Below, piece after piece: positions 39,925-43,625 of a stretch of 64,000 nucleotides of DNA. Both the position numbers and the translations under genes were made by a program. Source of the stretch: Thermococcus sp. P6. GTDB lineage: Archaea > Methanobacteriota_B > Thermococci > Thermococcales > Thermococcaceae. A model generated the notes under the pieces. That model ran no database searches and had not been told where the DNA came from. It worked only from the letters and a program-made list of their open reading frames with translations. Every line of letters begins with the position of its first letter. Within the stretch, counting starts at the first letter, position 1. The stretch lies in contig NZ_CP015104.1 in NCBI RefSeq assembly GCF_002214525.1, forward strand, positions 1,302,001 through 1,366,000, written 5' to 3'.

Positions 39925-41562
39925 TCATCTGCTCTCTCTCCTGCTCCTCAGCAAGTGGGCCACAATTTCATCGAGGGGTTTTAGGGCCCTCTCTTTCAGG
40001 CTTGGAACAAATATTCTTACCTCCTTTCTAAGCTCTTTTCTCAAAAGTTGCTCCGCATGGTACAGGTCACCGAGGTGGAGTGCAGCCGCCCAGTTATGCA
40101 CAACAACCCAGATCTCTTTAATCTCTTCAACACCTTTATACTTTCTCACGCTATTGAATATCTTGAGAATTGGTGCAGGTCCCGTGCCGAAGAGGGTTTC
40201 AGCTTCAATCGCCAGCCCACGATCCTCCACATAGAGATCCGCGATGACCCTATTAGGGAACGAGCGGTTGCACGTGATTGTCTCCAGCTTAACCCCCTCC
40301 TCCACCAGATGCTTAACCGACAACACCTTCAAGGCAACATGGTCCTCGCTCTCCTTTGGAGATACGTCTCTCTCGACATTCGCAATATACGGGCTTTGGA
40401 GCATCTCTTCAACGAAGTCCCTGTAAGCACGGTCGGCCCTTGACATAATGAGGTCACCGGCTGCAACGTTTTCCATATTAAGTGAACCCTCAAAACTCTC
40501 AGCGGGAAGTCCAAAAATGGCTTGAAGCGCCTTACCCAGTCTAATCGCGAATTCTCTCGCATCCTCATCCGATAAGTTCAGTTCAACCATTCGCGGTGAA
40601 TACGGTCTGCAGAGGTCTCTGATCTTCTTTGATGCACTCTCAACATCTTCGGCAGTCACTATAATGAAGCCCAGTCCACGTGAGAACGCCTCACGAAATC
40701 TCCTCTTCAACACTCCTTCAAGGTTTTCAAGATGTTCCTGTTCCAGCACTAAGATTTTGCCGGAGCCCCCGCCACGATGTTCCAGCCTCTCCAGTCTCCT
40801 ATGGGCTTCATCCTCACTGGCTCCCGAGAGATCGATAGGTTCTGGATATTCTCCACGGGCTTCCCTGTAAATTTCCTTGCACACCACCCAAATTGGATAC
40901 CAGAGGATTTCTGCAGGACTCTTCCTCGCAACAATAAATATAGGCTCTTCAACGATGCCCCCTGAACCGCCCACAAGTCTCCTGATGCTGGAATCCTCCA
41001 GTACCAACTCAAAGAGGCTAACCCCCCTCAGATGGTGGGCCTCTAAGACCTCTCTGGTAGTTACCTCTCTGGTAGTTATTAGACCGTGAGACGGCACTGC
41101 TTTAACACCCTCCTCCACAGGTAAATTAAGCGGTTCGAGTTCGGGTATTTTAACATGTGCAGAAGCTCCCTCCAATCTGGGGAGTTGGACCTCTGCTTCC
41201 GGGGTTATCAAATCCTCTGGAGTCTCAGCATGTACGTAAGGATGGATAGGAAGCCCGATAGAAGTCGGCTTTTCAATCCAGGCCTTAAACTGAGCCTTTG
41301 CTTTTGGTTGGAGGGTTAATTGGACAGGTGACGGCCCTTTGAGAGGGGTCAGTGTTGCGGGGATATGACCGGTAAGTGGTAGCTTTAGGGACGGGGGGCT
41401 AACTTTCTCCACCTCGTACTCTCCGCCTTTGGGTCCCTTTACCCTGATTAGTAATACATCCCCCCGATCTATTACCTCGGCTTCGTGATCGGGTTCTTTC
41501 GACAACATCCACTCAGTGAAGTCCTCGACGTATCGTAGCTCGTATTGGGGTTTACGTTGCAT
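39925..41562 (-). CDS. unassigned 545-aa protein with a C-terminal PD-(D/E)XK-like nuclease core
   Basis: I do not recognise the full protein. Residues 60-160 are Pro-rich with repeated short beta-strand-like units (LPLTGHIPATLTPLKGP, QLPRLEGASAHVKIPELEP). A 5-residue tandem TTREV follows near 165. Residues 195-390 look like an alpha/beta domain (KILVLEQEHL, GLGFIIVTAEDVES) without a visible P-loop. Near 435-520 the order Asp442 (VIADLYVED), Glu453-Ala-Glu455 (LAIEAETLFG) and a later strand EIWVVVHN fits a restriction-endonuclease-like fold with ExE instead of ExK. It lies 13 nt downstream of the 330-aa gene and is surely co-transcribed with it. Confidence 0.6.
   Translation of the reverse strand: MQRKPQYELRYVEDFTEWMLSKEPDHEAEVIDRGDVLLIRVKGPKGGEYEVEKVSPPSLKLPLTGHIPATLTPLKGPSPVQLTLQPKAKAQFKAWIEKPTSIGLPIHPYVHAETPEDLITPEAEVQLPRLEGASAHVKIPELEPLNLPVEEGVKAVPSHGLITTREVTTREVLEAHHLRGVSLFELVLEDSSIRRLVGGSGGIVEEPIFIVARKSPAEILWYPIWVVCKEIYREARGEYPEPIDLSGASEDEAHRRLERLEHRGGGSGKILVLEQEHLENLEGVLKRRFREAFSRGLGFIIVTAEDVESASKKIRDLCRPYSPRMVELNLSDEDAREFAIRLGKALQAIFGLPAESFEGSLNMENVAAGDLIMSRADRAYRDFVEEMLQSPYIANVERDVSPKESEDHVALKVLSVKHLVEEGVKLETITCNRSFPNRVIADLYVEDRGLAIEAETLFGTGPAPILKIFNSVRKYKGVEEIKEIWVVVHNWAAALHLGDLYHAEQLLRKELRKEVRIFVPSLKERALKPLDEIVAHLLRSRRESR
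41048..41077. repeat. 15-bp tandem duplication inside the 545-aa gene
   Basis: ACCTCTCTGGTAGTT occurs twice in direct succession (41048-41062 and 41063-41077). It keeps the frame and gives TTREV-TTREV in the protein, in a linker-like region. Confidence 0.8.
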
Positions 41563-41575
41563 GGGCTAACTCACC

Positions 41576-42568
41576 TTAGGTCTCTCTTTTTCTTTTTAAC
41601 AACATCATTAATCGCCCGTCAGCGGTCATCACCAGTTCCAAGGTCCCGAGAACTAAGGAGGGAGCTATTTTACGCATCAGGGTCAGCAGGTTAGTTTCAT
41701 GTTCAACAGTATATATGGTTCCATCACTGTAAAGGGAGTCTGCTATCTTGACCCCAAAACCCTCAATAAGGTAGACGTAATCTGAGCTTAGTCTGACGGG
41801 CTCCGTGAGATGTTTCCAGTGTAAAGACCAAGTATCTAGGGGTATAGGCGCTATACTCTTGCACATTTTTAAGTACTCCTCCACTGGGTCTTCAACTGAG
41901 AGCTCTATCCCCGATAGAATTCCGGGTCTACGTAGTAGGCTGACGATCGAGTCTACAAACCTGCATATGGCGCCTCCCAGGGTTTTCTCGCGTGCAGGTA
42001 TCAGGGAGATCGTTATCTTATTACCATACTCCTCCACTTTACCGAGTGATAGGTAATCCGGGTATCCGAGGAGGGTAAGCCTGTCCGCTAACGCTGACCT
42101 GACCCGGGGTTTAAACAGCTCCTTAACTCCCAATATCTGAAACACCGCCTGCTTGGCTTCCTCATCCTGATCAAGCTCCCGGTATATCTCGCCAAAGTAC
42201 TCCCTCGTAATCTTCCTGAGGGTCCACGCGAACAGTGTATACTTACCTCCTTCATCAACCCCAAGGAACGTGTTTGCGGATTTTTCTACAAGCTGTCTTG
42301 CAGCCTCTATGGGGTCATTGGGCGCTTCAAATCCCTCCTCCACCGGTCCAAGAACCCGGTTTGAAACTTCCAAGACGCGTTTTGCCTCTCTCGAGACAAT
42401 CCTTGCAACCTCAACTGAGGGGTCCCCTTCAAAATTCCCTGCGACGGCCTCAGCCAGCACCTGAATGGGATGCACGTGTTCCTCAACGAACCTCCTCCAT
42501 CGCTCCGGATCCTGAGGCTTAACACTTCTAAGAAGCTCTTCAGGAGATATTGTTTCGGCAAACGCCAT
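41576..42568 (-). CDS. unassigned 330-aa protein, first gene of the two-gene operon
   Basis: I do not recognise this protein. The first 170 residues are mostly charged helices (PEELLRSVKPQDPERWRRF, ARIVSREAKRVLEVSNRVL); the rest is alpha/beta with KITISLIPAREKTLGG, DYVYLIEGFGVKIADSLY and a final strand pair LGTLELVMTADGRLMMLLKRKRE. No P-loop, HTH or Cys cluster is visible. GAGGTG about 6 nt before ATG 42568 and a TATA element near 42624-42632 fix the start. With the 545-aa protein downstream it forms a compact operon in a lower-GC region. Confidence 0.55.
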   Translation of the reverse strand: MAFAETISPEELLRSVKPQDPERWRRFVEEHVHPIQVLAEAVAGNFEGDPSVEVARIVSREAKRVLEVSNRVLGPVEEGFEAPNDPIEAARQLVEKSANTFLGVDEGGKYTLFAWTLRKITREYFGEIYRELDQDEEAKQAVFQILGVKELFKPRVRSALADRLTLLGYPDYLSLGKVEEYGNKITISLIPAREKTLGGAICRFVDSIVSLLRRPGILSGIELSVEDPVEEYLKMCKSIAPIPLDTWSLHWKHLTEPVRLSSDYVYLIEGFGVKIADSLYSDGTIYTVEHETNLLTLMRKIAPSLVLGTLELVMTADGRLMMLLKRKRET

Positions 42569-42623: not shown

Positions 42624-42632
42624 CGTATATAA
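42624..42632 (-). promoter_or_regulatory. promoter of the unassigned two-gene operon
   Basis: On the minus strand TTATATACG lies about 56-64 bp upstream of ATG 42568, which puts transcription start near 42600 and leaves a leader containing the GAGGTG ribosome-binding site. Confidence 0.45.
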
Positions 42633-42724
42633 CGGTATGGAGTGGATAAATAAAAATTTTTTACTTGGAGCACAGTTATATGTCAGGAGGGTAAAAATGT
42701 ATCGAATTGTGCCGGGGATTTTAA

Positions 42725-43075
42725 TCATTCTTCATCCGAAACTCGAGGGATCTCGTTCTCGCCGGGAAGTATTATTAACTCTCTCCCCTCAACCAGCATC
42801 TCCGCAACCTTCTTTCTGGCCGAATTCAGGGCCCTCCACACGGTGCCCCTCGAAACGCCCATCCTTTCCCCGGCCTCTTCCTGAGTTAGACCCTCGTAAT
42901 CCACCAGCCTGAGGGCTTCGAACTCCTCGTAACTCATGAATATGGGCTGTTTGGGTTGGACCATCGGGGGAAGGTCCGGATAGAAGTGTTTAACCTGAGG
43001 AATGAACCCGATCATCCTCATCTTCCTTCGTCTTCCTCGTCCCCATCCCATTCCCGATCGCATTCCCCTTGGCAT
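42725..43075 (-). CDS. DUF134 (UPF0251) HTH protein
   Basis: The 116-aa protein starts with a Gly/Arg-rich head (MPRGMRSGMGWGRGRRRK), followed by the DUF134 core with MSYEEFEALRLVDYEGLTQEEAGERMGVSRGTVWRALNSARKK, a sigma-70 region 4-like HTH (about 48-95). DUF134 genes are commonly found near NifX/dinitrogenase-cofactor-like and MinD genes, as here (46333-50028), and may regulate them. A TATA element at 43104-43113 lies inside the longest frame, so the start must be ATG 43075, giving a leaderless or very short-leader mRNA. Confidence 0.85.
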   Translation of the reverse strand: MPRGMRSGMGWGRGRRRKMRMIGFIPQVKHFYPDLPPMVQPKQPIFMSYEEFEALRLVDYEGLTQEEAGERMGVSRGTVWRALNSARKKVAEMLVEGRELIILPGENEIPRVSDEE

Positions 43076-43103
43076 GGGTATCGTGAAACGGTCGAATTCG
43101 GGG

Positions 43104-43113
43104 TTTATATATC
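43104..43113. promoter_or_regulatory. shared bidirectional TATA region between DUF134 and queD
   Basis: TTTATATATC reads as a TATA element in both directions. It is about 29 bp from the DUF134 ATG on the minus strand and about 51 bp before the queD-like ATG on the plus strand. The two genes may compete for one TBP site. Confidence 0.45.
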
Positions 43114-43163
43114 TTTTTGACAAAGATTATAACCTCCGCAGGGAACTTAAGGTGGTGGGGGAT

Positions 43164-43625
43164 ATGGGGTTCCTCGTGAAGGAAAGAAAGATAGGGTGGC
43201 ACAAGGACTTTGACAGCTCCCATTTTCTGATATTGCCTTATGAGAGCAAGTGCCTCCGCATTCACGGGCACACCTACAATGTGGATGTTGAGGTGTGGGG
43301 AGAGCTCAACGAGAACGGCATGATATTCGACTTCAACCATCTCAGTGGCCTCGTAAAGCTTCTCGACCATAGAATCCTCGTGAGCAGGGAGTGGGTCGCT
43401 GGGAAGGATCGGGAAAAACTCGTCATCGAGCGGAACGGCAAGAGGCTTGAACTTCCCGGAAGCGAAGCGGTCGTTCTCGACAAGCCCAACGTGACGGCCG
43501 AGTACATAGCCGAGTGGTTTGCCGAGAGGATAGCCGAAAAGGCCGGGGACAACGTGGGGAGAATCCGGGTGAGGATCTGGGAAGATCCGAGGAGTTACGC
43601 CGAGATAACCCTCGAGAGGCGTTAG
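43164..43625 (+). CDS. queD: 6-carboxy-tetrahydropterin synthase / PTPS family (QueD-like)
   Basis: The 153-aa tunnelling-fold enzyme has zinc ligands in FDSSHFLI (about residue 21) and RIHGHTYN (about 37-41), and the catalytic Cys in ESKCLRIHGH, the arrangement of QueD rather than a mammalian-type synthase. In archaea this activity leads to preQ0 and archaeosine in tRNA, though some PTPS paralogues serve pterin synthesis. The C-terminal Glu of IWEDPRSYAEI is also conserved. GGTGGGG sits close to ATG 43164. Confidence 0.85.
   Translation: MGFLVKERKIGWHKDFDSSHFLILPYESKCLRIHGHTYNVDVEVWGELNENGMIFDFNHLSGLVKLLDHRILVSREWVAGKDREKLVIERNGKRLELPGSEAVVLDKPNVTAEYIAEWFAERIAEKAGDNVGRIRVRIWEDPRSYAEITLERR

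Follow-up and report, generated by a model that had tools for sequence, protein, structure and literature searches.

Relocation of the catalytic lysine is known within the PD-(D/E)XK superfamily of nucleases, and some archaeal ATPase_2 (PF01637) proteins carry a C-terminal DUF234 nuclease-like domain. The release of toxins by dedicated proteases is likewise a known theme. Here we describe a pair of adjacent archaeal genes, C and D, whose folds and likely role, that of a nuclease effector, are of known kinds. Neither protein has a match in Pfam (above cut-off), NCBIfam, PADLOC or the PDB sequences, which agrees with the initial annotation, where both genes were said to match no family. Among 22 D and eight C members no Pfam family was common to two members, none of the C or D proteins scanned matched a PADLOC model, and searches of PDB sequences with profiles of D, of its nuclease domain and of the proteasome-like gene A described below gave no matches. 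No description of such a pair was found in the open-access literature, which is not proof of novelty.

The pair was analysed in a stretch of 64,000 nt from Thermococcus sp. P6, hereafter the window. Gene C (41576..42568, minus strand), the first gene of the operon, encodes a 330-aa partner protein, and gene D (39925..41562, minus strand), the second, encodes a 545-aa putative nuclease; each ORF matches the profile of its family (4.9e-87 for C), and the two are separated by 13 nt on the same strand. An alternative GTG start for C, 105 nt upstream of the ATG, would give a protein of 365 aa; the ATG is the better start because a TATA-like GTTATATACG (42624..42633, minus strand), a candidate promoter picked out by eye that occurs once in the window, sits directly upstream of it. 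The GC content is 0.49-0.51 over C-D, compared with 0.55-0.59 for most of the window, and is 0.37-0.39 in the neighbouring 36-37 kb and 39-40 kb. On the other strand from C-D lies an Endonuc_Holl gene (PF10107; 38959-39465, plus strand; Pfam E 2.6e-61). The compact operon of two adjacent genes, its lower-GC setting and the separate nuclease gene close by, all reported in the initial annotation, were thus recovered.

In the window, purB and DUF134 are 6.3 kb apart and enclose pckG, Endonuc_Holl, D and C, whereas in two congeners (G017 and G057) about 1.3 kb, in which no gene is conserved, separates purB from DUF134; since the 6.3-kb segment is missing there, C-D is accessory in the window genome. 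No tRNA adjoins the locus, and tRNA-linked integration was rejected on this ground; nor were terminal repeats of a mobile element found around it. The window ORFs beside the pair include no BrxC, PglX or PglZ gene, and no BREX, type II restriction-modification (R-M) or other PADLOC-system gene adjoins the locus. Three further observations concern the window and its genome. A perfect 15-nt tandem duplication within gene D (41048-41077) gives TTREVTTREV in the protein. At 42725-43625, the DUF134 gene (minus strand) and a QueD-like gene (plus strand) face each other, their ORFs sharing about 120 nt in a head-to-head overlap, and the adjacency of these two genes is kept across much of the genus. 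The genome itself (G000) is 1.52 Mb, small against the approximately 1.7-2.4 Mb of near-complete congeners.

The D protein was modelled with AlphaFold2 from a nine-member alignment (mean pLDDT 57.8). In the C-terminal part, the model places a helix at residues 406-421, strands at 429-435, 439-445 and 450-455, a helix at 464-473 and a strand at 483-488, an alpha-beta-beta-beta-alpha-beta core within residues 406-521 that mostly has a pLDDT of 65-93. The model and residues invariant in 21-22 members delimit a predicted PD-(D/E)XK nuclease core at residues 405-531 (39970..40350, minus strand). D442 (codon 40237..40239, minus strand), the predicted active-site Asp in strand 2, is invariant among the 71 members that have a letter at that position. 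The codons of E453-A454-E455 (40198..40206, minus strand) correspond to active-site strand 3, which reads ExE in 64 of 70 members and DxK in the other six. K467 (codon 40162..40164, minus strand), in the helix after strand 3, would be the migrated catalytic Lys, this position being K, R or H in 62 of the 64 ExE members, while the six divergent members with the textbook D..DxK (L145, L146, L164, L165, L166 and L194) all have E at 467. An active site of the form D..ExE or D..DxK is therefore kept across the 70 members that have letters at these positions, on which the tally is based, and a functional PD-(D/E)XK site best accounts for the exchange of the Lys between position 467 and strand 3. These results show that D ends, according to the model, in a domain with the PD-(D/E)XK nuclease fold, and that a swap of active-site residues occurs in this domain across the family. 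A nuclease fold at residues 435-520, with D442 and E453-A-E455 as its motif, had been proposed from the letters of the sequence; the fold is present in the AlphaFold2 model, the motif falls in its strands 2 and 3, and the Lys/Glu swap backs the call.

Preceding the nuclease core, residues 204-350 are modelled as an alpha/beta domain whose helices continue to approximately residue 400 (residues 204-400; 40363..40953, minus strand). The top Foldseek matches in the PDB were AAA+ proteins (NSF, clamp loaders, Rif2), with E of about 1e-4 to 1e-3 and low TM-scores that are partly due to comparing the whole D chain; AAA+ proteins were again among the matches against viral models. No Walker A motif, GxxxxGK[ST], is present in the window D and none is conserved in the 22-member alignment, so that model and sequence agree with the earlier description of a central alpha/beta domain without a P-loop. 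We read this region, from the model, as a probable degenerate AAA+-like domain, and the absence of Walker A makes ATPase activity of D unlikely. Kinship to archaeal ATPase_2 proteins was rejected (hhalign probability 1.3%, E 0.04, not significant). The Pro-rich N-terminus (residues 1-203; 40954..41562, minus strand) is predicted to be disordered, with a pLDDT below 50. Several relatives have beta repeats of 31-32 aa in this part of the protein (for example, L051 scores 117 against a shuffled maximum of 46); the beta-repeat region that the initial annotation assigned to D therefore stands for relatives, but in the window's own D the repeat is not significant and the segment is modelled as disordered. 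For gene C, structure prediction gave no usable model.

Single sequences proved too insensitive to reach the relatives of the pair, a search with D finding only seven Thermococcaceae genomes and one with C almost nothing, and profiles were needed. With a seven-member profile, D was found in 21 of 115 genomes of its own phylum, all of them Thermococcaceae. A 22-member profile found it in 34 of 398 genomes of Thermoproteota, the phylum of Caldivirga, and in 25 of 394 genomes of Halobacteriota (the name used here for the phylum of the Archaeoglobaceae locus), some of them haloarchaeal. Across the three archaeal phyla this amounts to roughly 6-18% of the searched genomes. When one genome per species was scanned, relatives turned up in Thermococcus, Archaeoglobaceae, Alkanophaga, Thermoproteaceae, Caldivirga and Hyperthermus. 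The spread of the pair is thus much wider than the initial annotation could have known. The window pair is absent from most genomes of its genus. At most four places were found per genome, and the copies within genomes are divergent; identity between copies is 17-28%, indicating very fast divergence, and decayed copies occur at L015, L049, L056, L063 and L160. In eight near-copy comparisons of D or C, dN/dS was approximately 0.13-0.37, pointing to purifying selection on both genes.

In both the C and the D tree, members from Thermococci, Thermoproteota and Halobacteriota interleave, which indicates that C-D moves between phyla as a unit. The window pair groups in both trees, with a support of 100 in each, with a locus from Thermoproteota (L143), to which it has 37% identity in D and 50% in C by BLAST. 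The only plasmid record is a Halorussus plasmid carrying a D, and relatives of D or A were not found in viral contigs.

At most loci C immediately precedes D in the same orientation; the distance between the two genes, measured in 47 pairs, ranges from -35 to +36 nt. A profile search for C found it in 19 of the 115 genomes of its own phylum, and every C place adjoins a D place; the two genes do travel together, patchily, when followed through other Thermococcales, a check that the initial annotation had called for. The evolutionary distances of C and D are correlated (r=0.84 for the 47 pairs, 0.74 after thinning to 35), and none of 2000 permutations reached this correlation. D occurs without C as a remnant (G005, G011:C2), at the ends of contigs and at a few loci of the Thermoproteota phylum (L070, L133, L135 and L136), where the divergent D genes have other genes upstream and no recognisable C. 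These results show that C-D is a conserved, mobile unit whose members co-evolve.

Several other genes recur beside C-D. Upstream of D, C is replaced or accompanied by a family of small genes, of about 180-270 aa with a motif like LSPTRNYVLQLLELLP, at L138 (7620-8246), L144 (242-1048), L148 (5657-6319), L149, L154 and L209. In Caldivirga (L068, L069 and L071), a gene of about 294 aa without a Pfam match precedes C-D, and a similar gene lies after the second C-D of L129. TtuA-like genes are found beside D or C-D at L070, L133, L135, L136, L055, L057 and L058, in the Thermoproteota phylum and in Thermococcaceae. Other recurring neighbours resemble genes for ribosomal protein S15, diphthine ligase and aIF2-gamma; we base no claim on any of these neighbours, the TtuA-like genes included.

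Some loci lie in or beside defence systems. The sister locus L143 (G253:C21; 38-17999), which holds the closest relatives of the window pair, is a defence island with a type II R-M pair (1.7e-58 and 9.2e-74) on one side, and a methyltransferase, a 749-aa protein without an assigned family and a helicase on the other. At the haloarchaeal locus L154 (G624:C30; 2140-17423), D is located between BrxC and PglX within a BREX system (BrxB, BrxC, PglX, PglZ), together with two small C-like genes, a DUF6036 nucleotidyltransferase and a double wHTH regulator. On the Halorussus pelagicus plasmid (NZ_CP035121.1; L208, 4518-13344), a 1403-aa protein ends in D; before it come a 629-aa protein without an assigned family and a 792-aa PLD protein that matches PADLOC ZacB, and a NOV_C/DUF3883 protein is nearby. 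At L141 a HATPase/NOV_C protein follows D. CRISPR arrays lie near only four loci, which is about chance by a rough estimate with several arrays per genome, and CRISPR proximity was therefore discarded as a defence signal. At L194 (1270-2876; G225), at least 25 repeats form a CRISPR-like array about 4 kb upstream of the divergent A-C-D operon.

The role in DNA defence that the initial annotation suggested thus receives indirect support from the patchy distribution, the divergent multiple copies, decay, transfer between phyla, the R-M genes of the sister locus and one BREX copy; against it, most of the approximately 70 loci lie among ordinary genes and not in defence islands. On balance, we hypothesize that C-D is an undescribed, horizontally mobile two-gene system of archaea whose most likely function, with a chance somewhat better than even, is defence against viruses or plasmids. 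D would be the effector, a PD-(D/E)XK nuclease with D442-x10-E453-x-E455 and the Lys moved to K467. As its P-loop is lost, the AAA+-like domain of D would probably serve as a scaffold or sensor and not as an ATPase. C would be the coupled partner, most likely assembling with D and restraining or directing the nuclease, and upon an invader signal D would cut nucleic acid.

A second, unexpected kind of association, which the initial annotation could not see, also has to be weighed. A proteasome-like threonine peptidase is encoded at ten C-D loci, by gene A at nine and by a different PF00227 protein, located after D (E 4.5e-17), at L147. Gene A, which encodes approximately 275 aa with an N-terminal Met-Thr and a proteasome match, is present in six Thermococcales genomes; these six are the only full-length A genes in the 115 genomes, and all lie immediately upstream of B-C-D or C-D. 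In Thermoproteota, A directly follows D in L142 and L198, and in L194 it precedes a divergent C-D; three more distant A-like genes do not adjoin C-D. T2, directly after the initial Met, is invariant in gene A and is followed by conserved acidic and Lys residues. The PF00227 gathering score is passed by the A proteins of L011, L017 and L142 and by the L147 protein, and the L014 protein falls just below it; with the equivalog model of the archaeal 20S proteasome beta subunit, TIGR03634, gene A scores 17.6 bits against a cut-off of 224. Genes for AAA-type ATPases follow D in L151, L153 and L161 (assigned by a PF00004 match in L153 and L161 and by similarity in L151), and in L160 D is followed by a PAC2-family protein. 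The varied gene orders and subfamilies suggest that proteolysis genes were recruited repeatedly. The window locus has no gene A and no PF00227, AAA-type ATPase or PAC2 gene.

At the Thermococcales loci with the A-B-C-D arrangement (L011, L012, L017, L048 and L049, and only there), a gene B of about 305 aa and of no known family lies between A and C. The aldehyde ferredoxin oxidoreductase-like gene that follows D is a single ORF in L012 and L048, but in L011 (10349-12211) it is split into three ORFs.

Because the association with proteasome genes is at least as frequent as that with defence genes, the strongest rival is proteasome-associated quality control or regulated proteolysis, with C-D as an adaptor working with proteasome-like peptidases and Cdc48-type ATPases and with a nuclease domain that degrades substrate-bound RNA or DNA or has turned structural. 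The placement of gene A beside C-D in two phyla, the PF00227 protein of L147, the ATPase and PAC2 genes after D, and several loci that adjoin translation-related genes would all fit such a role. However, proteasome genes are lacking at most loci, including that of the window, 70 members retain the active site, and patchiness, decayed copies and transfer between phyla are unlike a house-keeping complex. Considering (i) this patchiness and decay and (ii) the R-M and BREX settings of some loci, we favour defence and judge quality control to be unlikely.

The two associations could also be parts of one defence system. In some lineages, C or the long flexible N-terminus of D could be processed by a peptidase of the system's own (gene A) or by a Cdc48-type ATPase, and the system could be gated in this way; such gating by A is not directly applicable to the window copy, as its locus has no A gene. 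Extended to all copies, this would amount to an archaeal immunity in which a pseudo-AAA+ nuclease is switched by dedicated proteasome-type proteolysis, the two-gene form of the window borrowing the cell's own proteasome; a proteasome-like peptidase or Cdc48-type unfoldase, triggered by the invader, would act on C or on the N-terminus of D and so free the nuclease. We put this extended form forward as a doubtful possibility.

The pair might instead be maintained by addiction, as a toxin-antitoxin or abortive pair in which D is a toxic nuclease, C its antidote and no specific invader is recognised. The two-gene operon, with C translated first and coupled to D across small gaps, points in this direction, as do the frequency of loss and decay, the presence of several unrelated copies in a genome and the known theme of toxin-releasing proteases. 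However, C and D both exceed the usual size of a classical pair, D contains two additional domains, and occurrence on a plasmid amounts to one record, and we consider this reading quite unlikely. A structure-specific nuclease of DNA repair or recombination, with a clamp-loader-like domain, is improbable: the nuclease fold joined to an AAA+-like domain resembling clamp loaders, the Endonuc_Holl gene adjoining the window pair and the clamp-loader-like genes beside L056, L059 and L060 speak for it, but the pair is absent from most genomes of the genus, its copies share 17-28% identity, decay and are transferred, and phmmer did not find the Endonuc_Holl neighbour at eight other loci. That C-D is cargo or a nuclease component of a mobile element, as the low-GC 6.3-kb segment missing between purB and DUF134 in two congeners and the movement between phyla might suggest, is hardly credible given that the locus has no terminal repeats, no adjoining tRNA and no constant integrase partner, and that C-D was not found in viral contigs.

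Defence thus remains the reading that we prefer. C-D is present in three archaeal phyla, lies outside the family libraries, is probably nuclease-based and is partly coupled to proteasome components. If the hypothesis is true, it would be a new archaeal defence module, possibly with a nuclease under the control of a proteasome-like peptidase dedicated to it; should its role be other than defence, it would still represent a new nuclease family tied to archaeal proteolysis, testable in the genetically tractable Thermococcus.

Compared with known systems, the D protein resembles the PD-(D/E)XK superfamily in the order of its strands and helices, in the Asp of strand 2, in the E-x-E or D-x-K of strand 3 and in the conserved H and K of the first helix; however, its sequence matches none of the solved or Pfam members, and its core is linked to an AAA+-like domain and to a repeat region at the N-terminus. 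The AAA+ ATPases (clamp loaders, NSF and the degenerate Rif2) give the best Foldseek matches to the D model, but D has no Walker A, and the fold match is weak with low TM-scores. With ATPase_2 (PF01637) proteins it shares an NTPase-like domain followed by a nuclease-like domain, and a few C-D neighbours resemble ATPase_2, although D has no P-loop and the hhalign comparison is not significant. Gene A is like the proteasome beta subunit (PF00227) in the Thr after Met, the acidic and Lys residues and the PF00227 matches; unlike it, gene A is a separate family tied to C-D and far below the TIGR03634 cut-off. Finally, some C-D loci are embedded in or lie beside BREX, type II R-M and other PADLOC systems, whereas none of the C and D proteins scanned matches a PADLOC model.
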